From positions 1 through 42,173 of IMG/VR virus record IMGVR_UViG_3300048103_000988: a stretch of DNA of 42,173 bases. One strand, given 5' to 3'. Numbering within the stretch: the stretch's first letter is position 1; every line of letters begins with the position of its first letter. The notes under the pieces were generated by a model. The model searched no databases. It saw nothing but the letters and a program-made list of their open reading frames with translations, and was not told where the DNA came from. Source of the stretch: a virus. Both the position numbers and the translations under genes were made by a program. This document shows, one piece after another, positions 1,279 to 34,100 of the stretch.

Positions 1279-1305
1279 GGGGGAACGCAATGTTCCCCCT
1301 TTTTT
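1279..1305 (+). terminator. Strong intrinsic terminator between converging genes
   Basis: GGGGGAAC (1279-1286) and GTTCCCCC (1292-1299) form a perfect eight-pair stem with a five-base loop, followed by six T (1300-1305). The T run is on the plus-strand side, so it ends the YRG peptide transcript. The T run overlaps the stop codon of the minus-strand tape-measure gene. On the minus strand the same hairpin is present but without a clear U tract, so it would be a weaker terminator in that direction. Confidence 0.93.
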
Positions 1306-3352
1306 ATGCAAATGATGCAGAGTTATCTAATGAATTATAATTAAAGGCGTTATTTGGACGTGATGTTTTCATATTGCTGCTGCCTTTACTCGTAATCATA
1401 TTAGTATTAGTAGAGTTATCTACATTATTTTGAACGACAGCCGGCTGATTTTTATTATTGTTCTTCATATTGCTTTGATCGTTAAGCAATTCAAAAATAC
1501 CTTTATCTTTGTCAAGGTCATTCCTTAGTGGGTTGTTAGTCCTGTCAATAAAATCATCAATTTTTTTAATGCCTTTATAATCATCTGATGTAAAATTATC
1601 GTCCTCGCCTTTTTTCTTTGTAAAGAATGCAATAAGAGAATCAAATATGCTTGATGCTCTATCAACTATTGTATCGCTAAGGATCTCGGCTTTTTCTTTT
1701 AGATTATTAAATTTTTCTTTATCAATACCTAAAGCCGCTTTAATTATACCGAGCATATAATCAAGAGCTTCTTTAACTTTATCTTTAATTGTTTGAAATA
1801 ATGTCGCAGCTGTATCTTTAATAATGTTGTATTTTTTCTTTGCCTCTTCCCATGCCGGTGATACATATCCCTTAGCTTTGTCATAAGCAGATTCTATATT
1901 ACCTCTTATACTTTCAAAAAGATCCTTAGCCTTTTGCTTTACTTCGTCGTATTTTGTTTTGGCTGCAGTCCATGCGGCGTCAACTTGAATAGATGCTTTA
2001 TCCATTGCAGTTTGAATAGCATTTGCTGACACATTATATATTTCATTAATTTTTTTCTTTATATTTTCGTTTGCTGTTGCGGGAAACTCTCTAACTTGTT
2101 GAAAAATTTCTTTAGATTTAGCAACAGTATCGTCAAAAGCTTGAGTTGCTATTGCTGCTATGTCTTTATATTTTTGTTTTACATTTTCCTTAAATTGTTC
2201 AAATGTGCTTGGAGCATTTAATATTGCATTCCATGCATTCTTAAGTCTTTCTATTTTTTGATTAAACATCTCAGTAAGTAATGTATCTAATACTTGATTT
2301 TGTGCCACGGCTTTATTATAGTAGTCTTGTCTGGCCTTCTCAGGGTCATTCGCTACATCTTTATTATTAAACCTTTCTGGTGTTATAGAATTCCAAAACT
2401 TTGCTAGGCCTAGCTCAGCATCTGCTGTTGCTTGGGCATTTAACTCTTTAGTACCTGCTATTAAACCTCTAAATTTTGAACCGGTCCTTTCGTATTCTTC
2501 CTTAGCTTTATTTACTACATCTTCACCATACGTAATGGCTAACAATAGTGCAGCTAATGCTAATGCGATTGGGCCGGCCATTGTTCCTACCCTAAGATAT
2601 GCAGCAACTTTCCCTAGACCCTTTTTAAGATGTGTTAGACCTCCTTTAATTTGGGTAACGAAAAAGGCAAATCCTCCTTTTAATCCTTTAAATCCAAATT
2701 TATATAATGCGAGACTGCCTATTAAAACACTTAATTTACCAAAGTTTTCTTTAAATGTATTAAGAGCTGCAGTAAAATCACCGGCTAGTATTTCCTCTAC
2801 AACCGTGAAAGCTGCTACTAGTGTCTCGGTTATCCGGTCGATAATTTTTTGCAATTTTTCAGGATCAAACATTGCTAATGCAACAGCTCCTAGCCCCGCA
2901 GCTGGCAATGCATTATTTTTTATTGATTCACCTAAACCACCTATACCGTCTTTAATTCCTTGAAGAAGCTTGCCTTCTTTTTTAGTTGCTTTTTCAGCTT
3001 CACGAGCTTTTTCAAGATCGCTCGAAGCACCTCCAAGTTTAGCTTGATTTTTTTCTTCTAGAGCAATTAGTTTTTCATCACCTTCTTCTATAGCTTTTTG
3101 TAATCTTTCTTGAGAAGCAATAAATTCATTTTTTAAATTATTTAATACATCTCTTTGTTGAAAATCGCTAAACTTCGAACTCTTAATTAACTCGTCTAGT
3201 TTATCAAGTCTATCCTTACTTGTCTTCTTTTTCTGTGCAGCAGTGTTTTGTGCTTTAAGTGCATTAGCTAATTGTTGTATACCCTTAGCGTCGCTACCAG
3301 CAAAGCCTGCTGCAACTTGTTTGTCTGACATTTTTGACTTATCTATAGCCAT
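1304..3352 (-). CDS. Putative tail tape-measure / hub protein (gp29-like)
   Basis: A 682-residue protein and the last gene of the minus-strand operon. The N-terminal 130 residues are charged and predicted to be helical or coiled coil. Two hydrophobic stretches follow, near residues 145-165 (LPAAGLGAVALAMF) and 260-285 (GPIALALAALLLAI). The middle to C-terminal half repeats long amphipathic helices of the type AW..AK.KYDE.K.KAKDLFESI. The end is Asn/Ser-rich. This profile and a length somewhat above T4 gp29 (590) fit a tape measure, which sets tail length and is ejected with the DNA. Context agrees: tube initiator gp54 and the chaperone-like gp26 lie upstream in the same operon. AAAGAG before the ATG serves as SD. 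No lysozyme or peptidase motif was recognised. The call rests on composition and context, not on a sequence signature. Confidence 0.7.
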   Translation of the reverse strand: MAIDKSKMSDKQVAAGFAGSDAKGIQQLANALKAQNTAAQKKKTSKDRLDKLDELIKSSKFSDFQQRDVLNNLKNEFIASQERLQKAIEEGDEKLIALEEKNQAKLGGASSDLEKAREAEKATKKEGKLLQGIKDGIGGLGESIKNNALPAAGLGAVALAMFDPEKLQKIIDRITETLVAAFTVVEEILAGDFTAALNTFKENFGKLSVLIGSLALYKFGFKGLKGGFAFFVTQIKGGLTHLKKGLGKVAAYLRVGTMAGPIALALAALLLAITYGEDVVNKAKEEYERTGSKFRGLIAGTKELNAQATADAELGLAKFWNSITPERFNNKDVANDPEKARQDYYNKAVAQNQVLDTLLTEMFNQKIERLKNAWNAILNAPSTFEQFKENVKQKYKDIAAIATQAFDDTVAKSKEIFQQVREFPATANENIKKKINEIYNVSANAIQTAMDKASIQVDAAWTAAKTKYDEVKQKAKDLFESIRGNIESAYDKAKGYVSPAWEEAKKKYNIIKDTAATLFQTIKDKVKEALDYMLGIIKAALGIDKEKFNNLKEKAEILSDTIVDRASSIFDSLIAFFTKKKGEDDNFTSDDYKGIKKIDDFIDRTNNPLRNDLDKDKGIFELLNDQSNMKNNNKNQPAVVQNNVDNSTNTNMITSKGSSNMKTSRPNNAFNYNSLDNSASFA

Positions 3353-3369: not shown

Positions 3370-3486
3370 TTATTTTCCGAACCAATCGTCGATTAAATTT
3401 TTACCATAATATAAAATACCTAACCAGACAGTAAATAAAATACCGTCAAAGTATGATAGTGTTTCCCATGCGTTTACCGGATCCAT
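3370..3486 (-). CDS. 38-residue single-span membrane peptide
   Basis: A small open reading frame coding 38 residues from ATG at 3486-3484 to TAA at 3372-3370. It starts inside the stop codon of the EF-hand gene (TAATG overlap), so it is probably translated by coupling. The N-terminus is polar (MDPVNAWETL). A hydrophobic aromatic segment follows at about 13-27 (GILFTVWLGILYYG), then a short charged tail (KNLIDDWFGK). It therefore looks like a single-pass membrane peptide. It lies 17 bases upstream of the tape-measure gene. The tight coupling and clean frame support a real gene. The function is unknown; a role with the neighbouring two-span membrane protein is possible. Confidence 0.72.
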   Translation of the reverse strand: MDPVNAWETLSYFDGILFTVWLGILYYGKNLIDDWFGK

Positions 3487-3806
3487 TATTTCTTACCTTT
3501 CATTGCTTGTGTACCAAAGAAAGCAGCAACGATACCAGCAACAGCAACAAAATATGTTGGTGCCATATCGCCTAGCGTTTCTTGTGCTTGATCTAAACCA
3601 GCTAATGATGCAATAACAACAGCGAATGGATATAATAATAATCCACCAAGGGCAAACCATGTCATGTTACGTTGTGCATCACGCATTGCATCAGCATCTT
3701 CTAACTCTTTACGTTTAAACTCTAAGTATAATGCCTCTTCAGCCGCACTTACTTTACCATCACCATTTGTATCTGCTGGATGAAATACTTTTTCTTCTTC
3801 TGACAC
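3486..3806 (-). CDS. EF-hand protein with two membrane spans; holin candidate
   Basis: A 106-residue protein with a GTG start at 3806-3804, supported by AAGGAG eight bases upstream. Residues 12-23 (DTNGDGKVSAAE) match a canonical calcium-binding EF-hand loop, with D12, N14, D16, K18, S20 and E23 at the coordinating positions. A charged helix (28-47) leads into two hydrophobic segments, about 50-70 and 83-101, and the protein ends in a basic KGKK tail. Only one EF-hand is present. Small two-span proteins with a charged end are typical of holins, and related proteins sit in the structural regions of other marine phages, but no lysis enzyme is visible nearby. It lies between gp26 and the tape measure and is coupled to the 38-residue membrane peptide. 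EF-hand: clear. Membrane topology: likely. Holin role: a guess. Confidence 0.8.
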   Translation of the reverse strand: MSEEEKVFHPADTNGDGKVSAAEEALYLEFKRKELEDADAMRDAQRNMTWFALGGLLLYPFAVVIASLAGLDQAQETLGDMAPTYFVAVAGIVAAFFGTQAMKGKK

Positions 3807-3819
3807 TTTAATTACTCCT

Positions 3820-4008
3820 TTATTTTTGTTGCTTTAAACGTTCGTTTTCTTCTTCAATATAATTTTTTAATAGCGCAGTGTATATTTCTCTTTCCCACGG
3901 AACCATATTGTCGAGCTCTGTTAAGCTATAACCATGGTGCTGCATCATCGCGAAGTTGGTCTTATAGTGGTTATATAAACTATCGTGAGAGAGGCCTAAC
4001 CAAAAAAA
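3820..4008 (-). CDS. -1 frame extension of gp26 (gp51/GT-like), reached by frameshift
   Basis: Behind the gp26 stop a -1 frame stays open for 59 residues, from TTA at 3999 to TAA at 3822-3820. It reads LGLSHDSLYNHY, then NFAMMQHHGYSLTELDNM, then VPWEREIY, and ends in a charged Glu/Lys/Gln-rich helix. The 'YSL.EL..M.PWERE.Y' pattern resembles the short gp51-type or tail-chaperone extensions found behind gp26-like genes. The frame has no ATG or GTG before the internal Met-Met, and it opens only just upstream of the U7 slip site (a TGA lies two codons before it). Independent initiation would therefore lose the conserved beginning. Frameshifting at 4008-4002 would give a fusion of about 293 residues (gp26 1-233, Trp, then this tail). 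The stop overlaps the SD of the EF-hand gene (TAAAGGAG). A homopolymer sequencing error is the main alternative. Confidence 0.75.
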   Translation of the reverse strand, partial: FFWLGLSHDSLYNHYKTNFAMMQHHGYSLTELDNMVPWEREIYTALLKNYIEEENERLKQQK

Positions 4009-4700
4009 TTGTCAAGGCCTCTTAATTCGATATCATTATCTTTTCCACAGTTTTTACACTTAAATTGTAAATCATATTTTAATGAAGGTGAATCTGTAAA
4101 GAAATCAGTTAACTTACTAAACTGATCGCTATTTAAAGAATCAATAAAATCCTTTAACTCTTCTCTTTTCGAATCTTGCGCTGGATAAACATCATCAGCA
4201 TCATAGATTGAATCAATTGAATCAATAAGAATTTCTGTTAATCCTTCTACACCTTCTACATTCTTATCTTGTTTTTCTAAATTTCCTATTTTAGGATAGG
4301 ACATTACTACACCAACATCTTTAGTTAATTCAATAGTAGTAGTTGAGTTTTTAACAACTGGCATTTCAATATCATCAAATAATATTTCCATTTTGTTTTC
4401 TGTTTCACAATGATCACATTTTGCCGTAACTTCTGTTTTTTCTCCAACAGACTTAGATCTTAATTTTAAAAATAATGCTTCTAAGTCAAACATCGTTAAT
4501 TCATCTGCATCTATATCGTTATATACACAACTAACAATAACATCCTTAAGTGCACCTAAAATCTGATTTGAGTCCTTTGATTCTAAAGCGATCATTAAAA
4601 TCTTTTCTTCTTTTACTAAATAAGGTCTATACTCAATTTCCTTATTTTGTGATGGTATAACTGTTTTATATTTCGCAGCATTCAATACTGGTAAAGCCAT
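3996..4700 (-). CDS. 26: gp26-like baseplate hub assembly protein
   Basis: A 234-residue homologue of T4 gp26 (208 residues), the T4 baseplate-protein family needed to assemble the hub together with gp51. The N-terminus (MALPVLNAAKYKTVIPS, then YRPYLVKEEKILMIA) is typical of the family. Two CxxC pairs, C95-x2-C98 (CDHC) and C215-x2-C218 (CKNC), form a probable zinc ribbon that brackets the C-terminal half. The ORF ends at DNFFG-TAG, directly after a run of seven U that can shift ribosomes into the -1 frame. GGAGA upstream of the ATG is a strong SD. It lies 18 bases after gp54 and upstream of the membrane proteins and tape measure. This is the place of the lambda G/GT-type chaperone in other tailed phages and supports a chaperone role for the gp26/extension pair. 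Confidence 0.82.
   Translation of the reverse strand: MALPVLNAAKYKTVIPSQNKEIEYRPYLVKEEKILMIALESKDSNQILGALKDVIVSCVYNDIDADELTMFDLEALFLKLRSKSVGEKTEVTAKCDHCETENKMEILFDDIEMPVVKNSTTTIELTKDVGVVMSYPKIGNLEKQDKNVEGVEGLTEILIDSIDSIYDADDVYPAQDSKREELKDFIDSLNSDQFSKLTDFFTDSPSLKYDLQFKCKNCGKDNDIELRGLDNFFG
4002..4008 (-). promoter_or_regulatory. Candidate -1 ribosomal frameshift site (UUUUUUU)
   Basis: On the minus strand the last gp26 codons read AAT TTT TTT GGT TAG. The U UUU UUU heptamer is in the right frame for tandem slippage of both tRNAs by one base. After slippage the next codons are TGG TTA GGC, entering the gp51-like extension. The zero-frame stop TAG is only one codon downstream of the slip site. 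I did not identify a convincing downstream pseudoknot by eye. Confidence 0.65.
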
Positions 4701-7422: not shown

Positions 7423-8490
7423 ATGCCATTTTTTAATCAATTTCCAAAAATAATGTATGACTTTAATCGTACTGGTACCGCGCAACAAATGGTTAATATA
7501 TTTAGATCTGTTAGGCCACAATCTAGTTTATTAAACGATTCTACGTTATATAAAAAATTCACTATTCCAGATGGAATGAGACCTGATGTAATATCTGAAA
7601 AATTATATGGCACTACTGACTATTATTGGACGTTTTTTATTATTAATGATTTTTTACATGATGGGTTACAAGCATGGCCAATGTCAGAAAAAGCTATGAG
7701 ATCTCACATGGATAAAAATTATTCTGGATTAGCTTTGCAATTTACTCCTACTACATTAAATTTAGATGGTACAGTTGCTACTAAAAACTCACTTGCTGGT
7801 AAGCTTGAACTTGGTGCATTTATTTATGGATTAACATCAGGAGCTATTGGTAGAATTATAAGAAAAGATTTAGACTTAAATATAATTGTAGTAGATGATG
7901 TTATACCGGGTGTTCAAGGTCGTAATCCACAAACTGGATCAATTGATAATAATATAGAAGGTGGATCATTTAAAACTAATGAGTATCTACAATCAGAGTG
8001 GACTGATTTAGAAGGTGTTACAAGAACCCTTGCATCGGGCTCTGACACTTTACTTACCCTTAAGCCTGATAAGATTTTTAATTATGCAGAAGCACCCGCA
8101 TTTTATTATTTAGAAGGTGATCCAGAAGAAAGACCCGTTACAACACCGGACATAATACCTACGCAAGCTTCACAAATTACACCAGTATATTCAGAGCTTC
8201 AATGGAATTTAAATTTACAATCAGAAATTAAAAACTTTGATCTAGATCAGCTAAATCAAAATGCTTTAGGCGATAAAGCATTTATTGCAACAAATACTAG
8301 TGTTGGAGAACCATTAATATCTAGTGGGGGTTATCAGCCTTCTAATGATGATATAAGTGGTCAAATTGTATATAAATCGAATAGAGATTTTGTTAAAGAT
8401 AAAAACGATGCAAGGTCAGTTATAGAAGTTATTAATCCAGCATTTATAGGTAATTTTATTGAAGAATTTGAGAGAGTACTAAATGCTTAA
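7423..8490 (+). CDS. 53: gp53 baseplate wedge protein
   Basis: A 355-residue homologue of T4 gp53 (196 residues), which joins neighbouring wedges around the hub. The conserved N-terminal domain covers about residues 1-100: FFNQFPKIMYDF, FTIPDGMRPDVISEKLYG (47-64) and DYYWTFFIINDFLHDGLQAW. The 'RPDVISEKLYG..DYYW' pattern is the LysM-like signature of this family. The remaining 250 residues add strands such as GAFIYGLTSGAIGRIIR and a Pro-rich stretch near 225-250, with no match I can name. TTAGGAG ends eight bases before the ATG. The 3' end overlaps the hub gene by eight bases (ATGCTTAA), indicating coupled translation. It is much longer than in T4, as marine versions tend to be. Confidence 0.88.
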   Translation: MPFFNQFPKIMYDFNRTGTAQQMVNIFRSVRPQSSLLNDSTLYKKFTIPDGMRPDVISEKLYGTTDYYWTFFIINDFLHDGLQAWPMSEKAMRSHMDKNYSGLALQFTPTTLNLDGTVATKNSLAGKLELGAFIYGLTSGAIGRIIRKDLDLNIIVVDDVIPGVQGRNPQTGSIDNNIEGGSFKTNEYLQSEWTDLEGVTRTLASGSDTLLTLKPDKIFNYAEAPAFYYLEGDPEERPVTTPDIIPTQASQITPVYSELQWNLNLQSEIKNFDLDQLNQNALGDKAFIATNTSVGEPLISSGGYQPSNDDISGQIVYKSNRDFVKDKNDARSVIEVINPAFIGNFIEEFERVLNA

Positions 8491-9826
8491 TTCAGCAAAA
8501 ACAACTTCTGGAGCAGCTATTAGTCCAGCGTCTTATCAACTCGTTGGTGTCAAAATAACTATGAGTAATGATGCTACAATAGACATAACAAATCTAGTTA
8601 GTGATATAACTGTATCAGAAAGTATGTTTTTATCTTCCATTACTACAGTATTACATATTGTTGATGGATTTGATTTATTGCGTAAAGCCCATTTAACTGG
8701 TGGGGAAAAAGTACATATAAAAATAATGAGAAAAAATAATAGTGATGAATCGTATAGTACTGCCGAAAATAAATTTGATATAACATGTCATTTATCACGA
8801 ATAGTTAATCACGTAAAACCTAAGGCTGGTATTCAAACGTATATGCTGTCATGTCTAAGTGAGCATGCATTTATTAGTCAAATGAAATCTATTAGTAGAT
8901 CATTTAATTCTAATTCAAATGCACTCGTACGAGATATATGTTTAAATGATCTTAAGTATCCTGGTAAAACTAATTTTAGTGATAAAAACTTACCAGTTAT
9001 TTCCGGAATATATCCTAACTTAAAACCAATAGACGCAATACATTGGCTACTTAGAAATATTGATGACGAGGATACACCTTTTTTCTTTTATGAAACTGTG
9101 GTTGAAGGCCTTCAACTTAATTCTTATAATGAATTAGTTGAGCAAGAAGTTTTTAAAAAATATAACAACACTCCCTTTTATATTAATAAATTTGAAACAA
9201 AAGAACACTTTGATGAAGCTCAATGTAAAATTATTAATATGTCGTCGGACTTTGATATGCGTAAATTTGATCAAATTGGAGATGGTGCGTTTTCTGGAAT
9301 TGTGCATAATGTCGATATTGCAAATAAAAAATATACCATAAATAGTTTTGATCACTCTCTTAAAAATAACATAAAATTAAATAATTATGCTGGAGTATCA
9401 AAAAATATAAAATTTGATGACACTGGACTAAATGAAAGTTATAGTTCTAAAGAATTTTTTGTTTCTTCAAACTCTAAATCTTTTGAAGGCGAAAAAATAA
9501 CCTATCATGAAAAAATAAAAGATAGCATATCAGCAAAAAATTCTTATTTTCAAAATATTAGATTTATGGGATTAGAAATAGAATTATATGGTGATTTTAA
9601 TTTATGTCCCGGAAAAATAATAGAGTTAAAAATAGTAAAAAGCACTGATGTTAATATACTAGAAAGTAATCAAAAAGAAGGAATGATTGACAAGCATTTA
9701 TCTGGCAAATATTTAGTAGCAGCTGTAGATCATGTATTCGATGGAGATGAATACAGATGTTCGGTTAGTATACATAAAGATAGTCTAAATTATGATTTAG
9801 ATTCTAACATAACAATTGGAACATAA
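8483..9826 (+). CDS. 27: gp27-like baseplate hub protein
   Basis: A 447-residue protein between gp53 and the gp5 spike, where the trimeric hub that holds the spike is expected (T4 gp27, 391 residues). The sequence has the usual hub layout: an N-terminal beta domain (ITMSNDATIDITNLVSDITV, then TTVLHIVDGFDLL), a helix-rich segment with LKPIDAIHWLLRN near residues 181-193, and a C-terminal beta part with GLEIELYGDFNLCPGKIIEL and LVAAVDHVFDGDEYRCSVSI. 'L..G..IEL.I......L.GKYLV..V.H.F' is characteristic of gpD/gp27-type hubs. It is richer in Lys and Asn than its neighbours. Its start overlaps gp53 by eight bases, and gp5 follows after two bases. The identity is supported by fold pattern and neighbours rather than by a strict motif. 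Confidence 0.7.
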   Translation: MLNSAKTTSGAAISPASYQLVGVKITMSNDATIDITNLVSDITVSESMFLSSITTVLHIVDGFDLLRKAHLTGGEKVHIKIMRKNNSDESYSTAENKFDITCHLSRIVNHVKPKAGIQTYMLSCLSEHAFISQMKSISRSFNSNSNALVRDICLNDLKYPGKTNFSDKNLPVISGIYPNLKPIDAIHWLLRNIDDEDTPFFFYETVVEGLQLNSYNELVEQEVFKKYNNTPFYINKFETKEHFDEAQCKIINMSSDFDMRKFDQIGDGAFSGIVHNVDIANKKYTINSFDHSLKNNIKLNNYAGVSKNIKFDDTGLNESYSSKEFFVSSNSKSFEGEKITYHEKIKDSISAKNSYFQNIRFMGLEIELYGDFNLCPGKIIELKIVKSTDVNILESNQKEGMIDKHLSGKYLVAAVDHVFDGDEYRCSVSIHKDSLNYDLDSNITIGT

Positions 9827-9828
9827 AA

Positions 9829-10791
9829 ATGTTAAGTAGAAAACGTGATAGTTTTATTGGTTCTCCCTTTGCATGGTTTACAGGTGTGGTAGAAGATATA
9901 AACGATCCTGAAAAGCTAGGGCGAGTACGAGTACGATGTTTTGGTTACCATAGTGAAGACTTGGCTGACATTGCGACTGATTCGTTACCTTGGGCAACTG
10001 TCATGGGGCCGACTAACTCTGCAAATATATCTGGTATTGGTACAACCACTCATGGATTAGTGAATGGCTCATGGGTAGTCGGATTTTTTAGAGATGGGCA
10101 AAGCGCACAAGACCCAATTATTATGGGAACGGTCGGATCAACCTATGAGGAAAAACCTAGTATAGATACTGGCTTTTCAGATCCTTCTGAGACATATCCA
10201 AAGTTTCAGCAAGATACCGATGGTACAGATTTAGAATCAGATTACATCGATACTAACCTGTTAGCACGTGGCACGAACACCATTACACGAGAACTTGATA
10301 CTGTAACTGAAGAACCTGCCACAGCTTATGCAGCAGAGTATCCAAATAATAAAGTAACACAAACAACATCTGGCCATATTATTGAAATAGATGATACACC
10401 AGGTGCTGAAAGAATTAATGTAAGACATCGCTCTGGTACATTCGTAGAGATACATCCGAATGGTGATGTTGTACAGAATAATGGTAACCGATTCCAAATA
10501 ACAACTGGTAATGATAATGTTCATATAACTGGTGTATGTAATCTAACAATCGATCAAGACTGCAATACAACTATCTTAGGTGATTGGAATATCGATGTAA
10601 CAGGTAATAAAAACGAAACGATTGGTGGTAACGTAACAGAAGACGTCGGTGGTAGTGTTAATGAAACTGTTGCTGGTAGCGTAACAGAAACTTATACTGG
10701 TAGTCAAACAACAAAAGCAGCATCAATGGACATCGATGCAACCAGTGGTGATATCGACATGGATTCAAAAGGCGACATTTTATTAAACTAG
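9829..10791 (+). CDS. 5: gp5-like tail spike, OB fold plus beta-helix, no lysozyme
   Basis: A 320-residue central spike protein. Residues about 14-105 form the OB-fold that binds the hub ring (WFTGVVEDINDPEKLGRVRV, then DSLPWATVMG, GSWVVGFFRDG and DPIIMGTVG). A Thr/Glu-rich linker follows (about 110-200). The C-terminus is the triple-stranded beta-helix needle. HRSGTFVEIHPNGDV leads into octad repeats of the VxGxxxET type around 253-292 (VTGNKNET, IGGNVTED, VGGSVNET, VAGSVTET). T4 gp5 (575 residues) carries a lysozyme domain between these parts; it is absent here, so this spike should puncture without digesting peptidoglycan itself. The gene follows the hub gene after two bases and is followed by the PAAR tip gene. 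SD support is weak, consistent with translational coupling. Confidence 0.88.
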   Translation: MLSRKRDSFIGSPFAWFTGVVEDINDPEKLGRVRVRCFGYHSEDLADIATDSLPWATVMGPTNSANISGIGTTTHGLVNGSWVVGFFRDGQSAQDPIIMGTVGSTYEEKPSIDTGFSDPSETYPKFQQDTDGTDLESDYIDTNLLARGTNTITRELDTVTEEPATAYAAEYPNNKVTQTTSGHIIEIDDTPGAERINVRHRSGTFVEIHPNGDVVQNNGNRFQITTGNDNVHITGVCNLTIDQDCNTTILGDWNIDVTGNKNETIGGNVTEDVGGSVNETVAGSVTETYTGSQTTKAASMDIDATSGDIDMDSKGDILLN

Positions 10792-21799: not shown

Positions 21800-24700
21800 A
21801 TGGCAATTAGTAAAGTAAAGAGTATTTTTTCAACATATACTTTTGATGACTCTGTTGAAACAAAGAATTATCATAGAGTATTATTTAGACCGGGTGTATC
21901 AGTACAAGCTCGGGAACTTACAGAGCTTCAAACTAATTTGCAAAGGCAAGTAGATTATCATGGACAGTTTGCTTTTGCTGATGGGAGTCGTGTTACTGGC
22001 GGCGAGCTTGCCTTAGATATTGAATATGATTATGTAAAAGTTGAAAATTCTTTTACAGATGGATCAACTTTTAATAGTGAAAGTTTTATATCGACTATTG
22101 CTAATACCGATGCAGCAAAATTAACAAATGCAAATGGCGTTGAAGCTGAAGTTCTTCAAGTAATTAGTGAGGCTGGTGTTGATTTATCATCAGCGTCTAG
22201 TAAAACCGGAATTTTACAATCTGGTAATATTAAAGACGATCTTACATTATATATTAAATACATTAAGGGTAGTGGCACCACCGATTTAAATTATTTTGCT
22301 AACGGGGAGGTTTTAACTTCCAGTACCGATACTAATAATCATAAATTAAAAATTGGTGGAGGCACAGGCTCTACTATTCAAAATGCAGTCGGTCAAGGAT
22401 CAAAAATAACTATTAATGAAGGTTCATATTTTATATCTGGTAATTTTGTTTATGTTGCTGCCGATACGCTTATACTAGATAAGTATAGTAATTCTCCAAA
22501 TTTTACTGTAGGTTTAAATATTATTGAAGATGTTGTATCATCTATAGATGATAACAGTTTAGTCGATAATGCTCAAGGATTTCCAAATGCATCTGCACCA
22601 GGAGCAGATCGTTATAAAATTTCTGCACAGTTAATTAAAGAACCTCTTGATGCTCCTAATTCAGTATATACAAATTATTTAACACTAATGCGAGTTGAAG
22701 ATGGTGTAGTTCAAAGAAAAATTGCTCCTAAGGCAGAAATCGATGCCGAGCTTACTAAGCGCCTTGCTAATAGAACTTTTGAAGAGTCAGGAAACTATGC
22801 AATAAATCCGTTTATTTTAGATATAAAAGAGCATTTAGATGATGGATCTAATAATGGTTATAAAATTCAATCTGCTGGAGGCTCAGCGGATAAATATGTA
22901 GTTGGTGTAGAACCAAACATTGCATATATTCAAGGGTTTAGGACTGAAATTAAGAAAACTAAATTTCTCGAGGTCGATAAACCTCGCGAGGTAAGTACAG
23001 CACCTTTTGATTTTGCAACAAAGCAAAGTACGACAAGTAGTTTACCCGTAGGTAACTATATAAAAGTAAAAATTAATGCAACAAGTGATTCAGTCGGTAT
23101 ACCAGATATTAATGATTTTAGAGAATTAGCTCTTCAAGATATATCAGATAGCACTCCTGGTGTTGCTTTAGTAGATAATGTTGAAGACGCTGGTAATGAT
23201 TTTGCAAGTTCTTCCTCTACCGGTAGAGCTACGGGCATTTATTTTGTAACTGATAATGGATCTACTTATGGTTCTCAGAACTGTAAATCAGATAATAGTG
23301 GTACAGGTTCATCACAAGGTTCTGGAGCTCAATTTAAAATTACAATTGATCAAAATAAAATTCCAACAATTGAAGTTATACAAGGTGGTAGTGGGTATGG
23401 CGTTAATAACACCTTTACTGTTAAAGGTACTGCTCTTGGTGGTACAACTACAGCCAATGATCTTACTTTTGATGTTGCAGCAACTGGTGTTGGTAGAGCA
23501 AGATGTAGAGCTATTACAGTAGAAAGCGCAGATGTTTTAAGATTATATCTTTTTGATATAACTATGACAAAAGGATCTTTTTCACAAGTTGACGAAGTAA
23601 TGCAACTTGGTGCTGCTACTGATGGTGGATTAACAAACGACTTTAGAGCCAAGCTAGTATCTCAAATTGGTGCTTCTACTGGTAAAAAATATGATTCTGA
23701 AAATAATTCTTATATTTGGAGACTTCCATATTACGGTATAAAAACCACTCAAGAGGCAAGCGACCCAAAACCAATTTATCAAATTCAAAAGAAATTGTAT
23801 GTCGACACTGCTAGTCAAGGTGGATTTCATACATTTGCTGGTGTACTTGCAGCTGATGAAACATTAATATCAACTTCTGGTGTAGTACTATCGATTGGCT
23901 CTGGTACTGGTCTTTCTGAAGCAACTGTAACAGATGCAACTGCGAGTGCAGTTGGAACAGATAATAGAGATATTAGAGTTGCTCATGCAAATATATCAGC
24001 TTCAAAGAGTGCAGCAGTAGTTGTTATTGTTCAAAAAACTGGTGCTGGTGATAATAAAAAGACCAAAACGTTTAATACTGTAACAAATCAACAGTATACA
24101 TTTGATGGTGAAAATCCTTTATTTTTAGATGCATATGATATTTACAAATTAGATTCTGTAAAATTAGGTTCAGCATCAGGCCCAGATATCACAGATAAGT
24201 TCAAACTAGATAATGGCCAAACATCAAACTATTATGGTGAAGGTAAAATCATTCCATTACAAAAAGTGGCAGCTGGTCAATTATACGTATCTTTTAGTCA
24301 TTATACACATGGCGCAGGTGATTATCTTGTAAAAGATTCATATCCAGCAGATGGTACATCAGCTGATCACTATTTAAAAGATACACCTACCTTTAAATTG
24401 CCATCAGGAGAAGAAGTCGATTTAAAAAATTGCGTAGATTTTAGACCAGTTAAAGCTACTACTGGATCTACTTCTAATAGATATGGCTTATCTGACGATG
24501 AAAACCAAGGAGGATTTAGTGGTGCTTCTGGTTCTGATGGTGGTGGGTCGGTAAATTCTCCTGCTGTACATCCTTCTTCTCAGTTTATTATGAATGCACA
24601 AACTTGGTTACCTAGAATCGATAAAATTATATTAAGACGCGATGGTGAATACAGTATAATTAAAGGCGTATCTGCAGAAAATCCAGTAGCTAAAGAAGAT

Positions 24701-27700
24701 CCTTCAGATTGTATGGTAGTAGCGACATTAAAAGTTAAGCCTTATGTCTATAATGCGCGTATCGATGTTATACCTGAAATCAGAAATTATAAGCGATATA
24801 CTATGAAGCATATTGCTGAAATTGATAAAAGACTTAAGAAACTAGAATATTATACTTCTTTAAGTCTACAAGAGCAAGCTACATTTAATATATCTCTTAA
24901 TGAAGTTGTACAAAAAAGTACAGATGGTGGCGATACTTATACTGATACGGTTGAAAGATTTAAGAATGGTATTTTCACCGATCAGTTTAAAGGCCATGGT
25001 AATGGTCACGTTGTACACCCAAACTATAAGTGTTCAGTTGATAAAACTAATAATTTAGTAAGACCTTTTTATGATGAGCAAGGTGTAAACCTTGTGCGAA
25101 AAGCTAATGACTCCGGAGCTGCAGTACATAATAGATCAATGTACACTTTGCCGTACGATAGTGTACCATTTATTAATCAACATAATGCAACTGAAACTGA
25201 GTTTATAAATCCATATAATATGTTTGTGTGGACTGGAACCTGTCGTCTATCACCTGATAGTGATGAATGGAAAGATGTTGAACATTTACCAGATGTTATT
25301 ATTAATGATGATAGTCAATATGATTACCTAGTTGCTTTATATGAAGAAAAAGGACTGGTAGGTCAATATGAATGGGGCGAATGGGAAACTGATTGGACTG
25401 GTGTCGAAAGCGATATTCAAAATTTTGCGTTTGATCGATCTATTGATGGCGACACACAATGGCGAGATGCTGGTGGATGGATGCAACCTGGTAATGTTAC
25501 TGGTACTATCACAACTACTACTACTACTAAGGGTCAATCTCAATCAGGAACATTAAGTTATATAAAAGAAAATTCAACTACTTCAGAATCAGGCGATCAA
25601 GTAATTGAAGTTAATTACATACCATTTATTCGTTCAAGAGAAGTTTTCTTTACTGCAGAGTTACTAAAGCCTAATACGAAGCTTTATGCATTTTTTAATG
25701 ATGTTAATGTTACTGCATGGTGTGCAGAAAAAGCATTTCAAGAATTTACAGATAGAGTTAATGTTGTACCACATACTGGTAAAACTTCACATGATTTGAC
25801 TACTGAGTTAATAACAGATGCAAATGGTAGAATTACTGGTTCATTCTATATTCCAAACACAGAGGCACTAAGATTTAAAACTGGTGAACGTATATTTAAA
25901 CTAACCGATTCGCCTAGTAATGATACTGCTAATCTTAATGATCAAAGTACTTATGCTGAAGCAATTTATCGTGCACAAGGTATGCTAGAAACTAAGCAAA
26001 ATAAAATTATTAATACCAAAGGTGCCGAAATTGCTTTCCAAGAAGTAACAGAAAGTAGAGTTATAACTGAGCAAACTGTAAGCGATAATAGAAAAGTTCA
26101 GTGGTTTGATCCATTAGCACAATCTATTCTAATTGAAGAAAAAGGTGGGTGTTTTGTTACTGAACTAGATTTATTTTTAAATACTGCAGATCCTTCGATA
26201 CCAATTAATGTATCAATAAGAGAAATGTTTAACGGATTTCCTACACAAAAAATTGTACCAGGATCTGATACAATAATTTATCCATCGAGTCAATCTTCAG
26301 GAACAAAAACTGCAAACACAATGGTTGCCGGTGAAAAATATAGAATTAAGAATAATACTGGTGTTGACTTTACAAGTGTTGGTGCACGCGATAATGATGT
26401 AGGCACAGTATTTAGAGTTCCTCTAGATGCACAGTCTTTAGTAAATAATTTAAACTCTAGCGGTAAAGTTGACGAAATAAATGTATTATATACTGGATCA
26501 GCAGGTTCGATGTTATCTGATAATGCATCAGCTGCAATGCCAGTTACATTTGCTAATCCGATTTATTTATCTCAGGATCAGGAATACGCAATTGTATTAA
26601 TGTCTAATTCTGATATTTACAAATTGTTTGTAACGAAGCCAGGTAAAAACGATTTAACTACTGGAGCATTAGTTCAAGGTAATGAATATGGTGGTTCATT
26701 CTTTATGTCACAAAATGCTTCTACTTGGACTCCAGATCCAGCAAGAGATCTTAAGTTTAAACTTTATAAAGCACAATTTGATTCTAGTGCAACAATTACG
26801 TTTGTAAATGATAGTATTCCAGCTAAAAAATTGCAATCTGATCCTTTCTTAGTATGTAGTGATAGTGTAGATAATAGCGCAGTTCTTAGAGTGAATCATC
26901 CCAATCACGGTATGATGAATGGAAGTAAAGTTACAATTACAGGAGCTACGGGCATACAAACATGTACTGCTGGATTACTTAATTCAAGTCATACGGTTTC
27001 TAATGTTGAAAGAGATTCTTATTGTATTATAATTGCAGATAACGCAATTGACCCCTTAGCAGTATCTACGTATGGTGGAGGAGACAATGTAACTGCTACT
27101 GAAAATATGACAGTTGATGCGCTAGTTCCTTATGCTGAAATGTTAAATTTACCAGAAACTGATATTGTTGTAAACTTTGATTCATTTAGTGCACGATCTG
27201 TAGATGGAAATCAATCACCATTTGTTAAAACATCAGGTTTACCTTTAACGATGAATAAAACAAATTATTTGGATGATCCAATTTGTATAGCTAGTGATGC
27301 AGAACATACTGCAAATCCTACCTTAGGAAACCTTAATAATACTATTGCAACTAATAAATCATTTGGCATGAATGTTACACTTAGTACAACAAATACTAAT
27401 TTAACACCTATGATTGATGGTGATAGATGCTCACTATTTTGTATTTCAAATAGAACGAATGATGCATCAAGTAATAGTGGTTCTGGAGGATATAATGATA
27501 CTGGTAAAGGTAGAGTTTATGTTGCAGATACAGCTGCTGTAGGTAATTCAAATCTTAATGCATATATTACAAAAGAAATTACATTAGCTCAAGAAGCTAC
27601 ACATCTTAACTTCTATGCAGATGTGTTTAAGCCTGTTGGTTCAGATATAGTTTTATATTATAAAGCTCAAACTTCTGGTGATGACGTACCATTTGATGAT

Positions 27701-27904
27701 TTGCAATGGACTCGTCTAAATCCTACTGTGCCAATTGGTGCTGACGACACTACGTTTGGTGCTGTCGAATATGCAGTTAATTTGGCTGATGTTCCAGAAG
27801 TTACTGATACATTCTCTTCATTTGCATTTAAAATTGTATTTATTGCCAACAACAGTTCTAGGCCTCCAATGATATCAAACGTTAAGGCTATTGCGAGTAC
27901 TTAA
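21800..27904 (+). CDS. Giant virion structural protein (DUF4815 type)
   Basis: A 2034-residue protein directly after gp8, in the place where T4 has gp9 to gp12. The N-terminus (STYTFDDSVETKNYHRVLFR, then PGVSVQARELTELQTNLQRQ, residues 11-50) is the hallmark of DUF4815-type structural proteins of marine myophages. The central part near residues 1000-1080 keeps YTMKHIAEIDKRLKKLEYYT and NPYNMFVWTG, and further on VNYIPFIRSREVFFTAELLK with GSFYIPNTEALRFKTGERIF. VQWFDPLAQSILIEEKGGCF and the beta repeat QGGSGYGVNNTFTVKG are also visible. The C-terminus is a beta-sandwich-like region ending in VKAIAST. The role is probably a baseplate-associated peripheral structure or fibre connector, possibly replacing gp9/gp10; this is inference. 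TAAGAG before the ATG is the SD. Confidence 0.85.
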   Translation: MAISKVKSIFSTYTFDDSVETKNYHRVLFRPGVSVQARELTELQTNLQRQVDYHGQFAFADGSRVTGGELALDIEYDYVKVENSFTDGSTFNSESFISTIANTDAAKLTNANGVEAEVLQVISEAGVDLSSASSKTGILQSGNIKDDLTLYIKYIKGSGTTDLNYFANGEVLTSSTDTNNHKLKIGGGTGSTIQNAVGQGSKITINEGSYFISGNFVYVAADTLILDKYSNSPNFTVGLNIIEDVVSSIDDNSLVDNAQGFPNASAPGADRYKISAQLIKEPLDAPNSVYTNYLTLMRVEDGVVQRKIAPKAEIDAELTKRLANRTFEESGNYAINPFILDIKEHLDDGSNNGYKIQSAGGSADKYVVGVEPNIAYIQGFRTEIKKTKFLEVDKPREVSTAPFDFATKQSTTSSLPVGNYIKVKINATSDSVGIPDINDFRELALQDISDSTPGVALVDNVEDAGNDFASSSSTGRATGIYFVTDNGSTYGSQNCKSDNSGTGSSQGSGAQFKITIDQNKIPTIEVIQGGSGYGVNNTFTVKGTALGGTTTANDLTFDVAATGVGRARCRAITVESADVLRLYLFDITMTKGSFSQVDEVMQLGAATDGGLTNDFRAKLVSQIGASTGKKYDSENNSYIWRLPYYGIKTTQEASDPKPIYQIQKKLYVDTASQGGFHTFAGVLAADETLISTSGVVLSIGSGTGLSEATVTDATASAVGTDNRDIRVAHANISASKSAAVVVIVQKTGAGDNKKTKTFNTVTNQQYTFDGENPLFLDAYDIYKLDSVKLGSASGPDITDKFKLDNGQTSNYYGEGKIIPLQKVAAGQLYVSFSHYTHGAGDYLVKDSYPADGTSADHYLKDTPTFKLPSGEEVDLKNCVDFRPVKATTGSTSNRYGLSDDENQGGFSGASGSDGGGSVNSPAVHPSSQFIMNAQTWLPRIDKIILRRDGEYSIIKGVSAENPVAKEDPSDCMVVATLKVKPYVYNARIDVIPEIRNYKRYTMKHIAEIDKRLKKLEYYTSLSLQEQATFNISLNEVVQKSTDGGDTYTDTVERFKNGIFTDQFKGHGNGHVVHPNYKCSVDKTNNLVRPFYDEQGVNLVRKANDSGAAVHNRSMYTLPYDSVPFINQHNATETEFINPYNMFVWTGTCRLSPDSDEWKDVEHLPDVIINDDSQYDYLVALYEEKGLVGQYEWGEWETDWTGVESDIQNFAFDRSIDGDTQWRDAGGWMQPGNVTGTITTTTTTKGQSQSGTLSYIKENSTTSESGDQVIEVNYIPFIRSREVFFTAELLKPNTKLYAFFNDVNVTAWCAEKAFQEFTDRVNVVPHTGKTSHDLTTELITDANGRITGSFYIPNTEALRFKTGERIFKLTDSPSNDTANLNDQSTYAEAIYRAQGMLETKQNKIINTKGAEIAFQEVTESRVITEQTVSDNRKVQWFDPLAQSILIEEKGGCFVTELDLFLNTADPSIPINVSIREMFNGFPTQKIVPGSDTIIYPSSQSSGTKTANTMVAGEKYRIKNNTGVDFTSVGARDNDVGTVFRVPLDAQSLVNNLNSSGKVDEINVLYTGSAGSMLSDNASAAMPVTFANPIYLSQDQEYAIVLMSNSDIYKLFVTKPGKNDLTTGALVQGNEYGGSFFMSQNASTWTPDPARDLKFKLYKAQFDSSATITFVNDSIPAKKLQSDPFLVCSDSVDNSAVLRVNHPNHGMMNGSKVTITGATGIQTCTAGLLNSSHTVSNVERDSYCIIIADNAIDPLAVSTYGGGDNVTATENMTVDALVPYAEMLNLPETDIVVNFDSFSARSVDGNQSPFVKTSGLPLTMNKTNYLDDPICIASDAEHTANPTLGNLNNTIATNKSFGMNVTLSTTNTNLTPMIDGDRCSLFCISNRTNDASSNSGSGGYNDTGKGRVYVADTAAVGNSNLNAYITKEITLAQEATHLNFYADVFKPVGSDIVLYYKAQTSGDDVPFDDLQWTRLNPTVPIGADDTTFGAVEYAVNLADVPEVTDTFSSFAFKIVFIANNSSRPPMISNVKAIAST

Positions 27905-27905
27905 T

Positions 27906-28130
27906 ATGAAAGTATTAATACAAGATAATGTCTCATTAAGTCGCGATACTACGAATGGCGCTGTTATAAATACTAATAACAGTTTATATCAAAAACGTTT
28001 AAATGAAATTAAAGCTCTAAAAAATCGTCAAATTGAAAGTAAAAAATTCAAGGAAGAGTTTAATAATCTTAAAACTGATGTAGATGAAATAAAAACTTTA
28101 TTAAAAACCTTATTAGAGAGTAAAGAATAA
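27906..28130 (+). CDS. Small coiled-coil protein coupled to the giant fibre
   Basis: A 74-residue protein. An in-frame TTG at 27891 overlaps the preceding gene, but the ATG at 27906 lies one base after that gene's stop and reads MKVLIQDNVSL, so it is preferred. The second half is a regular charged heptad helix (LNEIKALKNRQIESKKFKEE, then LKTDVDEIKTLLKTLLESK), expected to oligomerise. The stop overlaps the start of the giant fibre (TAATG), so the two are translationally coupled. A fibre-assembly chaperone (T4 gp57A has 79 residues and is also helical) or a small connector are possibilities; no homology to gp57A is visible. The function is unknown. Confidence 0.75.
   Translation: MKVLIQDNVSLSRDTTNGAVINTNNSLYQKRLNEIKALKNRQIESKKFKEEFNNLKTDVDEIKTLLKTLLESKE
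27961..27982 (+). promoter_or_regulatory. Candidate late promoter inside an inverted repeat, upstream of the giant fibre
   Basis: TATAAATA at 27965-27972 overlaps a perfect seven-base inverted repeat, CTGTTAT (27961-27967) and ATAACAG (27976-27982). It lies in the small coiled-coil gene, 158 bases before the giant fibre start. It may give extra fibre transcript. Chance is a real alternative. Confidence 0.35.
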
Positions 28131-31100
28131 TGTCAAAAGAAACCTTAGTAAATAAGTCAGAAACCTTTGAGGATTGGAGATTAAAATCTAATGAGGTCTC
28201 ATTAGATCTTGGAGCCGTTGCTAGTGATGATACATATAGTTCAACTAGTCTTGATACCGAGTCTCGATTAACAGATCAATATATTACTAAAAATGATTTA
28301 GGAGATGGTGCAGTATATATTCGTGATATTTCAAGTATTGCTGGTGGATTAGAAATAGATCACTCAGCAGATAGAATGCTAGATAATACTGATGGTTATA
28401 TTATTCTTAAAGATGGTGTCGAAAATGCTGCATCATGGGCACAATTTCCACCAGGCACTAAATTATGTCAATATGCAAATAACACTACTGGTACTACAGT
28501 AATATTTAGTGCTATTGTTGTTTCTTGCTCTAATAAAAAAATATTAATCGATAATGTAGGTGGTACCGAACCGTTTAATCCAACGTTACGTTTATATGAT
28601 AGCGGCAATGCCGGTTATACAAAATTTATTCCAGCATCGTATTTAAAAGAACTAATAGTCGAATCATACAATCATGGTAATGTTAGAGTTTATTTGAGTC
28701 GCAATTATCAATTCCCTGCAAGTCACCAGGGAGGAGCAACTACTAATACATTAACATTAAGTGATGATACGTATTATGCGATTCAAGATGGAGAAAAAGT
28801 AACTTATACTACACCAGATCCGGCAAGTAACGGCATTTTGGCCGGTAAAAGTGCCGGTGAAGTTACAACACTTTATGTTAAAAAATCCGAATCATACGAT
28901 AATACTGAAATTTCATTGTCTTTAAGTCCTGGTGGTAGTGATGTAACATTATTAAATGGTAGCGAAACACAGACTTTAACAACTTCCAGAGTGGCCTTAA
29001 AACAAGGCATGGTACGTAATGGTTTTCACATTGCGCCACAATCATATTATGTAACACATACTGCTTCTTCTATTCCAGTAACTTTCTTGGAAGGAGAAGT
29101 TGTATATCAAGGTAGTGATGTTAATAATCCGGATTTCCAAGCAACATTATATACAGCTGATGTTGCTGGTACTTTAATATTTAAAAACATTTTATTAGGT
29201 ACATTTAATTCATCTGTGGATCTTAAATCTACTACGCTAACTAACGGTGCTGGTACTGCATTAACTGCAGCTAATACTAAAATTGCTGCAGCCGATTTAA
29301 ATAATGATTTTAAAACATCTAATGCTACTATTAGTCAAATGATAGAATTTAATACACCTGCAGCTGCAAGTGATGACTATAAAGTATACTTTGGTAGTGC
29401 TGTTGATGCTGTACTTGAATTACAAGATGATGTTGGTACAGTAGAAAATCTACAAACAAATAATACAACAGATTTAACAGTTGCAATCAACGAATTAGAA
29501 CTTGGTATTCGCGGAACAAGTAATAATCTTGTTGCAGACGATTTAGGTAATAGTACAGGTCGGCCAGCATTTACTGCAGATGATATCGTATCAGCTCTTG
29601 TTGAACACGAAGTTGATCTGTTTGGTGCTAGTAAATCGCTTTCAGATTTAGGTACAAACGACAAAGGTGATTTTGTTTTATCAATCAATGAGCTAGAAAC
29701 TGCAATTAGAGGTACAAATACTGCATTAGTGTCTGCTGACTTAGTATCTACTTCTAGTCCTAGTGCTCACCCAGCAATGACTGCAACTAACTTAATCGAT
29801 GCGGTACTTGAGCATGAAGTTGATTTGTATGGTACCGGATCTCAAACATTAGGTTCACTTGCAACTAATAACCAATCTAACTTTGTTGCAGCAATTAATG
29901 AATTAGAAACTGCTATTCGTGGTACAAATGGTGGTTTAGTATTAACTGATTTAGGAGTAACACTTACTTCATATAGCAATAGCGCTGTAAATCTTGTAGA
30001 TCATAATGAAGAACTGCAGCGTGATATTGGTGATGTTACAAATACTAAACTCGGTCTATTAAATACTTCAAATGTAACACTAGCGACTCATGGTAGTGCT
30101 ATTGCTTCTGGTGAAACTGTTCTTACAATGGTATCAAATCCTATTGTTGCCGGTATTAAGGTTGGCATGTTTGTAACTAGTCAACACAGCCCCAATTCGA
30201 TTGATACATCGACTGGAGGTGGTACATTTGTAACAGCAGTGAGCACAACTCAAGTTACACTTTCAAGAGCAACAGCTGGTGCGCTCACTAGTGCAGCTTT
30301 GATTTTTAAAGTTGAAGATATTGTAACAAAAATTAAAGATCTAGATGATGTTTTAGGGGATATTGCTTTAATCAATAACGATACTTTCTATACTGATATT
30401 GCATTTACTGATACAACTGTAAAAGATTCAATTAATAGTATTACAGATTATATTGGTGGAACAGATATTGGATCAGTTATTAATAGTGGTAGCGAGACAC
30501 TTACAAATGCGATTGCACAGTTATATACTGATATCGGTGAAGTAGGTACTTCAGGTGCAAACATTGTTGCTAGTAACTATAATGATAATACCACTGATCT
30601 TAAGAAAGCTGTAATCGCTGCAGCCGTAGGTATGACAGGAAGTGTTGAGTTTGATACTGCATTCCATGCAAGTAATTCTGGTAGCTTGGCGGAAAAGTCT
30701 GGCTATAGCGCAACCGATTTACATGCAGGTATTAGAGAACTTCAAACCTATGTAGGTGATGCAAGCACACTAAGTACATCTGGTGATACTGTAACAACAC
30801 ATGTTGAAACCGCTGGTGGTTCAGCACATACCGGTAATTCGACTACTACTCTTACATTAGCGTCTCCAGCAACTTTTGCTCAAGTTGACGTAGGGTATCA
30901 AGTACAAATTAACGTTAATGGAGATAGTTATCAAAATGGCGATGAGAGCCAAATTCCAGCTGGAACTAAAGTTGTTAGACGAATTAGTAGCACTGAGTTT
31001 GAACTTAATAATGCTGTAACGGTTGATACTGCAGGCGGCGTTACACGTAATTTAGCATTTAGTAAAACCGCTGATTACGGATTCCAAAATGATGTTATAA

Positions 31101-34100
31101 CTGATGCTCTTATTGAATTAAGAAATGCATTGGTTGGTGGTACTGCAGATTTAACTGATAAAATTAATACTCTCGATGATTCGGATGGTGCAGGTACTGA
31201 CTTTAGTTCAACAAACGTTGTTGATGCAATTAGAGAGCTTCAAGACGATTTAGGCCAAAGAACATTAATTACTGGATCGCCTTTCCACTCAGATATCAAT
31301 GGAACATATAATACTACAAATATTGTAACAGTATTAAATGCTATTACTGCTGCAATCGGCTCTCATGATATTGGAGATGCTGTTAATACTGGTAATGAAA
31401 CTCTTACAAACGCAATTGCTCAATTAAGAACTGACATTGGTGATGCTGGTAGTAGTGGTGCAACTTTAACTACAACTGCAACTGATTTAACGACTGCAAT
31501 TAATGAATTAGATTTTGAAATTGGACCAATTAGTAATGCTAAATTAGGTACAGCTGCCAATCGATCTAAAACTTATGCTTCAGGTGGAGCAAACGGTGCT
31601 ACTACTGTTACACTAAATAATGTAGCTGGATTGATAGAAGGAATGAATGTATCTGGTACTAATATTCCAGCTGGAACAAAAATCAGTAGTATTAGTAGCA
31701 ATACAATAACCCTTACTCAAGCGGTTAACGGAGCAGCTGGCGTATCAGGTACTCTTTCATTTACAACAGAAGATATTCAATCATCTATATTAGCTAATAC
31801 TGCAAATATTGGTAGTACTGAAGATTTGGACGATGCTGTTGGTTATACCACTCAGCAGGTTGTTCTTGCAATTAAAGAGATTCAAGGATTAATTGGTGAT
31901 ATTCAGGATAATAATGAAGCACCTATTTTAAATAGTGTTAATACTCGTATTACTCGCAATACTAATGCTGAAGTTACTACTGGCGCAACAATTGCAGTGG
32001 CTGATACAACTGGTATCACAGTAGGTATGAAAGTTAAAAATACTGCGTCTGGTCGCACAGGAAGTATTGCAGCCGGAACTTTAGTAAATGCTGTTAATGT
32101 TGGTGTAAGTATTGGTGTAGATACAGCCGTTGTTTCAACAATTAATAGTGGTGATACCTTACAATTCGATTCACCTACTGTTGTAAACGCTGTTAGATCA
32201 ATTGATGCACGTATTGGTCAACAAGTTACTCCAGCAAACATGGGTACAACTGCAACTACATTAGTAACAGCAATTAAAGAAACTACTGATGAAATTGGTG
32301 ATGTAACTGCAAATAACCTGGGAACTACATCATCTACTATTACAACTGCAATTAAAGAAATTGTAGATGGTACTGGCCAAGCTGATGTTCAAGTCGGTGC
32401 TGAGGCAACAGGCGGGGCTACGATTACGCGTAATGCCGCTAACGGTGGTTTCCTTAAAAAGGTTAAAGCTGGTTATGGTGCTGATGCACAAACAATTGTG
32501 AGTAACTTAAACTTCGATGCAGCAGGCCCTACGGATGTTCTTCATAAAACTACCATGAAGTTTGGCGCTAATACAGTATTAGACGTAAGCCTAGCAACGC
32601 TTATTACAGAAGCTGCTGATGCTAATTTCGACACAACTGCTCGTAAGATTGTATTCGGATCTACTGTAAATGATGGACAAGGTATTGAAATCGATAGATC
32701 AAACGAGGTAGTTGGTACTGGTAATAGAACTATTACTGGTGCAGTTGGTAATCTTGGTATTAATCCATCTATTCTATGGGTTGATGGTGAAGTAACTGCT
32801 CGTGATCCTTCGGCTGCTACAGCCACTGCAACTACCGGTGGATCTAATACTGCTAGTGGTACGACTACTATAACTGTAGTAAGTACAGGTAATCTTGAAG
32901 CAGGAATGGTAGTAACGTCAGATGTTGCTGGAGCTTTAGTGCCAGGTACATTTATTGCTAATATAATAAACAGTACTAGTTTCGGTATATCACAAGCAAC
33001 AACTGCTATTATACCAGCTAGTACAATATTAAACTTTGATATTCATAGCCGAAATGATCTAGGCTGGAAAGTTAAAGGCTTTAAACCAACAAGTACTCCT
33101 GATGCCGCCGATAGTTTTTATCAAGCTCCTAACGTTGATTTTTACAATGCTGGTAGATTATTTGGTAAGGGTACATCAGGAATTGATAGTACACAAAACG
33201 GTGTAACTGTAACATGGGATCCAGTTACACAACATTTTGATACATCATTACAAACTATTCCAGGTTTAAGTGCTGGCACCACTGGTAATACGACAACTGT
33301 ACCAGTTATTACTGTCGATACCTTTGGTAGAATAACTGCAGTTACTACTGCTAACGTTGCAGATGCTCTTGGCCAATTTACTCTTGAAGGTGATAGTGGA
33401 TCACAAACTATTGGTGTTAATGAAACTGTTAAAATCTTAGGTACAAGTAATGAAATTACAACAGCATTAACTGAATCCGGAGGTATTAATACAGTTACTG
33501 TTGGTTTACCAAACGATGTTACAATTGGAAACGATTTAACAGTAACAGACAGATTAATTGTTCAAGGTACTAGTGATGATCCTAGTACCTTTGATGGCGA
33601 TGTTCAGATAGATGGTGATCTAAATGTACAAGGTTCTATCTCTGTAGGTGAACAATCTTTAAGCTTTACTACAACATCTGCTACTGTATCATCCAAGCAA
33701 ATTATATTAAATGCACTTGCAGATACTGCTCAAGCAGATGTTGCTTCTGATACTGGACAAGCAAACGTTCCAGCTGCATCCTTTGTTGCTCACCGCGGAT
33801 TTAAATCAACTATACTTAGTGGCGGTTTAAGTATCTTAACTAAAGGATTAAGATATAAAATTAAATCGTCTGGAGCTGATAATGCTATTACTGCAAATGA
33901 ACAAGCTGCAATTAAAGCAGTATCTGGCGCCACTGATGATCATGTGCATAATGAGGTAATTACTGCAACTACAACTGGTAATTTTGTGCTAGGCAATTAC
34001 AGTAACATTACTTTCAGGGAACAACAAACTGAAGCTAAGATTGCATGGAATGAAGGAACTGATCAATGGGAATTATATAGAGGAACTGATGAAACACAAG

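Follow-up and report, generated by a model that had tools for sequence, protein, structure and literature searches.

A predicted -1 ribosomal frameshift would join gp26 to a gp51-like tail in the tail assembly chaperone gene of a T4-like marine phage

In an uncultured marine phage, the gene assigned to gp26 ends one sense codon past a run of seven thymines, and the -1 reading frame opened at this run continues beyond the gp26 stop, which raises the question of whether translating ribosomes are shifted there in order to produce gp26 in an extended form. The gp26/gp51 pair of this phage had been proposed in a first-pass annotation to work as a frameshifted chaperone of the kind known from lambda, where a short form (G) and a -1 frameshifted long form (GT) are encoded upstream of the tape measure gene. 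In the current work, the whole stretch of DNA analysed (42,173 nucleotides, positions 1 to 42,173 of the IMG/VR record IMGVR_UViG_3300048103_000988) is referred to as the window. Its gp26 locus was compared with 80 IMG/VR relatives of the window gp26, 80 relatives of a cyanophage gp26, nine further viral contigs that are more distantly related, and eleven regions from annotated phage records, which after removal of duplicates left a first set of 54 loci (the window clade and three phages) and a second set of 81, making a total of 135.

The gp26 gene occupies positions 3996..4700 of the minus strand and encodes 234 amino acids, being assigned as TAC-N (the short form of a tail assembly chaperone, TAC) from its matches to PF12322 and phrog_150 and from the comparison of its AF2 model with TAC structures. 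Its 3' end reads ...GGC CTT GAC AAT TTT TTT GGT TAG on the minus strand, corresponding to exactly seven A's at 4002-4008 on the plus strand. The heptamer T TTT TTT (4002..4008, minus strand), predicted to be the -1 frameshift site from direct reading and from the relatives, has the X XXY YYZ phase relative to gp26 and is separated by one sense codon from the stop TAG (3996..3998, minus strand, direct reading); the in-phase U UUU UUU reported earlier was thus right in sequence and in coordinates. The closest stop upstream in the -1 frame immediately precedes the heptamer, and the frame entered after the shift is open from 4002 to 3823 (60 codons), with its stop at 3822-3820. This tail (3820..4002, minus strand; the gp51 domain or TAC-C, recognized by phrog_634, pN/pS and AF2 helices) reads WLGLSHDSLYNHYKTNFAMMQHHGYSLTELDNMVPWEREIYTALLKNYIEEENERLKQQK after the shift, and the conceptual gp26-gp51 fusion amounts to 293 amino acids. 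The open frame had been noted before with a length of 59 codons, a figure which differs from ours by whether or not the junction codon is counted. The first ATG of the -1 frame is codon 19 (3948-3946) and no ATG, GTG or TTG is found earlier, in agreement with the previous statement that the tail has no start codon ahead of it.

Alignment of the gp26 loci revealed T TTT TT(T/C) in gp26 phase, with zero or one sense codon before the gp26 stop, in 134 of the 135 non-redundant relatives, these being counts of sequences and not of independent events, as metagenomic contigs share ancestry. The heptamer was present in all 54 loci of the first set (3 nt from the gp26 stop in 53 and 0 nt in one) and in 80 of the 81 of the second, where the gap to the stop is 3 nt and rarely 0. 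The T ahead of both Phe codons and the first Phe codon, TTT, are invariant in the heptamer-bearing sequences, and the run itself is T7, in some cases T8, in the window clade. The concern that the seven T's could be a misread six or eight is removed, as regards sequencing error, by the occurrence of the heptamer in more than 100 separate contigs. The same comparison bears on the explanation by which a pseudogene, or a sequencing frameshift, has split a formerly single in-frame gene. Such a gene does occur in one relative (L153, IMGVR_UViG_3300049043_000112; L153:1001-1900), in which gp26 and the tail share one frame with two bases missing at the slippery site, on a 236-kb contig where the profile search retrieved a single PF12322 gene and no second one. 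This locus represents either an assembly error or a phage in which the short form has been lost, and, being two bases short with respect to its relatives, it may itself be the error. Relatives with a single in-frame gene had been named in advance as evidence against frameshifting and are confined to this one locus of the 135, whereas the same split layout is found in 134 non-redundant loci with purifying selection on both halves; the pseudogene or sequencing-error explanation is already refuted by these comparative data and is given next to no weight.

The protein encoded by the -1 frame, previously described as conserved-looking, has a pN/pS of 0.26 across the 54 first-set loci; reading either of the other frames instead gives 1.04 or 2.66. 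For codons 1-18, which precede the first ATG, the value is 0.30. By this measure the -1 tail is under purifying selection, codons before the first ATG included, and the stretch from the slippery site to the first ATG is therefore most likely translated. The tail (59 aa) also matches phrog_634, 'baseplate hub assembly catalyst' (gp51), with E=2.5e-27 over profile positions 60-116 of 121, its 36-aa core doing so alone with E=2.4e-14. The AF2 model of the tail consists of three helices (pLDDT 83), one of which spans tail residues 6-23, so that an internal start at codon 19 would truncate that helix.

These observations have to be weighed against the alternative that the tail constitutes a small protein of its own (gp51), whose translation starts close to the gp26 stop through re-initiation or coupling, with the T-run being incidental. 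Start codons are indeed found there in several lineages: the GenBank record of P-SSM4 has gp51 annotated from an ATG 5 nt past the gp26 stop, TGATG or TAATG is present at the stop in Cr30, AF3, VP-1 and nt-1, and in most cyanophage-like contigs an ATG lies 2 nt past it. However, no ATG, GTG or TTG lies near the stop in the window and its clade is alike, the first ATG of the -1 frame being codon 19 or 20 in 52 of the 54 first-set loci; in the window this ATG falls within the predicted helix and after strongly conserved residues. MbCM1, AsFcp_1 and ZPAH1 likewise have no nearby ATG, and in these phages, as in the window clade, the tail would depend on frameshifting. Moreover, the heptamer is kept even in relatives possessing an ATG: it is retained in the cyanophage-like contigs just mentioned, nt-1, Cr30 and AF3 have T TTT TTN together with TAATG or TGATG, and XG4 has T TTT TTA together with TAATG. 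An independent ATG for the second reading frame, regarded in the first-pass annotation as an argument against its proposal, is thus common among cyanophage-like relatives, yet it has not displaced the heptamer. Vibrio phage VP-1 (L088:2489-3417) has GTTTTTC and hence no heptamer, and its gp26 stop overlaps an ATG (TAATG), which suggests that frameshifting has been replaced by coupled re-initiation in this phage. For the locus as a whole, a separately initiated gp51 with an incidental T-run is considered improbable.

The identity of gp26 as a chaperone was assessed by profile and by structure. The profile search matched gp26 to PF12322 T4_baseplate (E=6.9e-59; 199.6 bits with a curated cut-off of 24.5) and to the phrog_150 baseplate hub family (E=3.5e-64). 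With residues 1-94 of its AF2 model (pLDDT 88), VIA-align placed 3FGX, 2OB9 and 3KLU on top with Z values of 8.0, 7.5 and 6.9 over 84-85 residues, a range (6.9-8.0) which VIA-align calls middling, all three being TAC-family matches that stand clear of the rest (5IR0 follows at Z 4.8 and the remainder at 3.5 or below). Foldseek with the same model returned no significant E-value, with 2OB9 at a probability of 0.96, and no relevant match was obtained when PDB chains were searched by sequence with the gp26 profile. The N-terminal 94 residues of gp26 are thus predicted to adopt a TAC fold, which would be common to HK97 gp13 (2OB9), YqbN (3KLU) and rbstp2171 (3FGX), described as TACs (PMC9603447); with respect to these, gp26 is extended at its C-terminus by some 140 residues that include a CxxC motif.

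The gene order is in line with this assignment, as the tape measure was said to lie downstream of the pair and is found there on the same strand. It is a gene of 682 aa (1304..3352, minus strand; phrog_167 and phrog_1272 tail length tape measure, E=1.4e-11), preceded by one small ORF of 106 aa (3486..3806, minus strand; taken from the ORF list), and the order of chaperone, small ORF and tape measure on one strand is the same in Cr30. The small ORF has a weak EF-hand match (PF13202) through the motif DTNGDGKVS, and apparent hydrophobic segments. Elsewhere, on the plus strand of the window, a separate 'tail protein' ORF (8483-9826; phrog_350) precedes a gp5-like ORF (9829-10791) encoding a 320-aa hub/lysozyme protein (phrog_430), much shorter than the 868-position profile; the tail-fibre/baseplate region comprises a 2034-aa ORF with DUF4815 (21800-27904) and a 3142-aa ORF (28130-37558).

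Taken with the heptamer, the selected -1 frame, the predicted TAC fold and the gp51 profile match, this gene order supports well the earlier reading of gp26/gp51 as a frameshifted, G/GT-like chaperone. The locus is very probably the TAC gene of a T4-like marine phage in which a -1 shift generates a gp26-gp51 fusion beside the short gp26, where the slippage itself, its efficiency and the roles of both products are what we infer. Most ribosomes would terminate at the gp26 TAG and release the 234-aa TAC-N. In a minority, re-pairing of the tRNA-Phe in both the P and the A site would move the reading frame back by a single base at U UUU UUU, and translation would then pass the gp26 stop and yield the 293-aa fusion (TAC-NC). 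If the two products behave like lambda G and GT, TAC-N would form a coat on the tape measure protein, and TAC-NC, the less abundant of them, would use its helical tail to bring in subunits of the tail tube. Counting against this reading are the in-frame gene of L153, the lost heptamer of VP-1, the ATG close past the gp26 stop from which many cyanophage-like relatives could make the tail as a separate protein, the small ORF ahead of the tape measure and, as set out below, the outcomes for the upstream purines of the window clade and for RNA structure. The window shares with lambda a short form and a predicted -1 long form upstream of the tape measure; it differs in the heptamer (GGGAAAG in lambda), in the larger gp26 with two CxxC motifs and in the small ORF before the tape measure.

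In order to recognize cis elements near the site, conserved columns of one amino acid were compared inside the same gene, a comparison in which shared ancestry is controlled for, since the columns of one gene share one tree. All 75 sequences of the cyanophage-like set have TTC as the second Phe codon of the heptamer (75/75), the next-highest Phe column reaching 63%. At the Glu column that precedes the last heptamer codon by six codons, GAG accounts for 84% (other conserved Glu columns: 32% or less), the Gly after it is GGG in 25% (the other conserved Gly column: 7%), and the duplex with the anti-Shine-Dalgarno has an energy of -7.21 kcal/mol versus -5.23 for the synonymous null (spread 0.18). 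This codon-selected, Shine-Dalgarno-like GAGGG of the cyanophage-like relatives, which is possibly new, lies 9 nt upstream of the heptamer and about 24 nt from the post-stop ATG, too far away to serve that start, which is a further point against a separately made gp51. The layout resembles that of dnaX, in which a Shine-Dalgarno-like sequence is located about 10 nt ahead of the slippery site.

The same data bear on transcriptional slippage, by which the T-run would shift the mRNA instead of the ribosome. Runs of T7 and some T8, as in the window clade, have lengths that can provoke polymerase slippage; against this, the run in the cyanophage-like set stops at six T's, with a C always in the seventh place (TTT TTC in 75/75), which is short for a polymerase and suits tRNA-Phe re-pairing, the phase of the heptamer is strict, and an upstream Shine-Dalgarno-like element is selected in that set. 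Transcriptional slippage is accordingly judged very unlikely, somewhat more so than a separate gp51, and ribosomal frameshifting is retained as the preferred reading.

The window itself has AGAGG, a purine-rich element, at a distance of 9 nt ahead of the heptamer (4018..4022, minus strand), equivalent to the GAGGG of cyanophage-like relatives and a possible internal Shine-Dalgarno stimulator. Among the 51 sequences of the window clade no codon-level signal was detected for this upstream purine-rich element, and its anti-Shine-Dalgarno energy (-4.77) equals the synonymous null (-4.81); being fully explained by amino acids and codon usage, it is not claimed as a stimulator in that clade. A different element, GCCTC, is located just past the gp26 stop (3991..3995, minus strand), where the codon control indicates nucleotide-level constraint in the window clade: at the Leu four codons past the shift, 96% of the clade has CTC, compared with 12% or less at 11 other conserved Leu columns, and the codon preceding that Leu has C as its third base in 98% of the 54-locus set. 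As it lies beyond the 0-frame stop, GCCTC is not explained by gp26 coding, and this post-stop element of the window clade is likewise possibly new.

Among structures free of pseudoknots, no conserved stimulatory RNA structure emerged. RNAalifold returned no consensus structure at the site on 51 and 47 sequences. A candidate stem downstream of the stop (+28..+49), located by hand, has its pairs formed in only 66% of cells; its covariation is weak and confined to part of the set. An inverted repeat, AGAGGCCT...AGGCCTCT, surrounds the site and yields a good fold in the window (z -2.15); this stem was rejected as a stimulator, as the AGAGG/CCTCT pairing displays no compensatory change in relatives and the stem would enclose the slippery site within the ribosome footprint.

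The comparison with T4 clarifies what the tail represents. T4 gp51 (249 aa) is a PF12322 protein (E=7.7e-55), as are T4 gp26 and the window gp26; an alignment of T4 gp51 with the conceptual window fusion continues past the junction (E=2e-5). T4 has two PF12322 genes, 26 and 51, which are divergently transcribed neighbours, whereas eight T4-related genomes from outside the group of T4 itself (Cr30, AF3, AsFcp_1, VP-1, nt-1, ZPAH1, P-SSM4 and MbCM1) have one each. By these matches, T4 gp51 is paralogous to gp26 and continues in frame into the same tail, and the cyanophage "gp51" is the equivalent of only the C-terminal part of T4 gp51. T4 thus has a gene of its own for each of the two forms, short and long, with no frameshift, unlike the window and these phages, where a single gene encodes both. 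Genes 26 and 51 of T4 are separate, as stated in the first-pass annotation, with the correction that T4 gp51 is more than the tail, being a whole gp26-like protein plus tail.

Frameshifting is reportedly conserved in several T4-like groups, T4 itself having separate genes 26 and 51, in the 2022 work of Vladimirov and colleagues. That paper identifies the TAC genes of T4-like phages (Vladimirov, Gautam and Davidson, Virology 2022, 566:9-15, doi 10.1016/j.virol.2021.11.003), and in PMC12846349 it is cited for poly-T -1 frameshift signals in the TAC-N genes of these phages. None of the papers covered by our literature search joins frameshift, gp26 and gp51 of T4-like phages. Given that T4-like TAC frameshifting was reported in 2022, the central G/GT inference was right but already published in kind: the link between the T4 hub genes and the G/GT system is supported, its novelty is not, and the window, which comes from an uncultured marine phage, extends the set of these TAC genes by one, with no difference in kind. 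The TAC of phage Adele (Vandenendeviridae / Andersonviridae), with GTTTTT (PMC12846349), has a poly-T -1 frameshift at the TAC-N end and an open -1 frame, as in the window, with another slippery sequence and in another phage family.

As judged from sequence comparison across the many uncultured marine phages sampled here, the assignment of the T4-like hub genes 26 and 51 to a tail assembly chaperone pair would be confirmed, with frameshifting as the probable route in most T4-like lineages sampled outside T4's own group. In cyanophage records gp51 is often mis-annotated or missing, as in P-SSM4 and in metaG-MbCM1, where it was left unannotated. Cis elements are indicated by the codon comparisons made inside the gene, and we tentatively suggest, as a possibility somewhat short of even, that the frameshift is tuned by lineage-specific elements (GAGGG in cyanophage-like phages, GCCTC in the window clade) and that in several lineages a start codon is stacked on the site, so that the tail may be produced by two routes. 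If true, a stacked start codon together with the frameshift would be a step toward the two-gene solution of T4.
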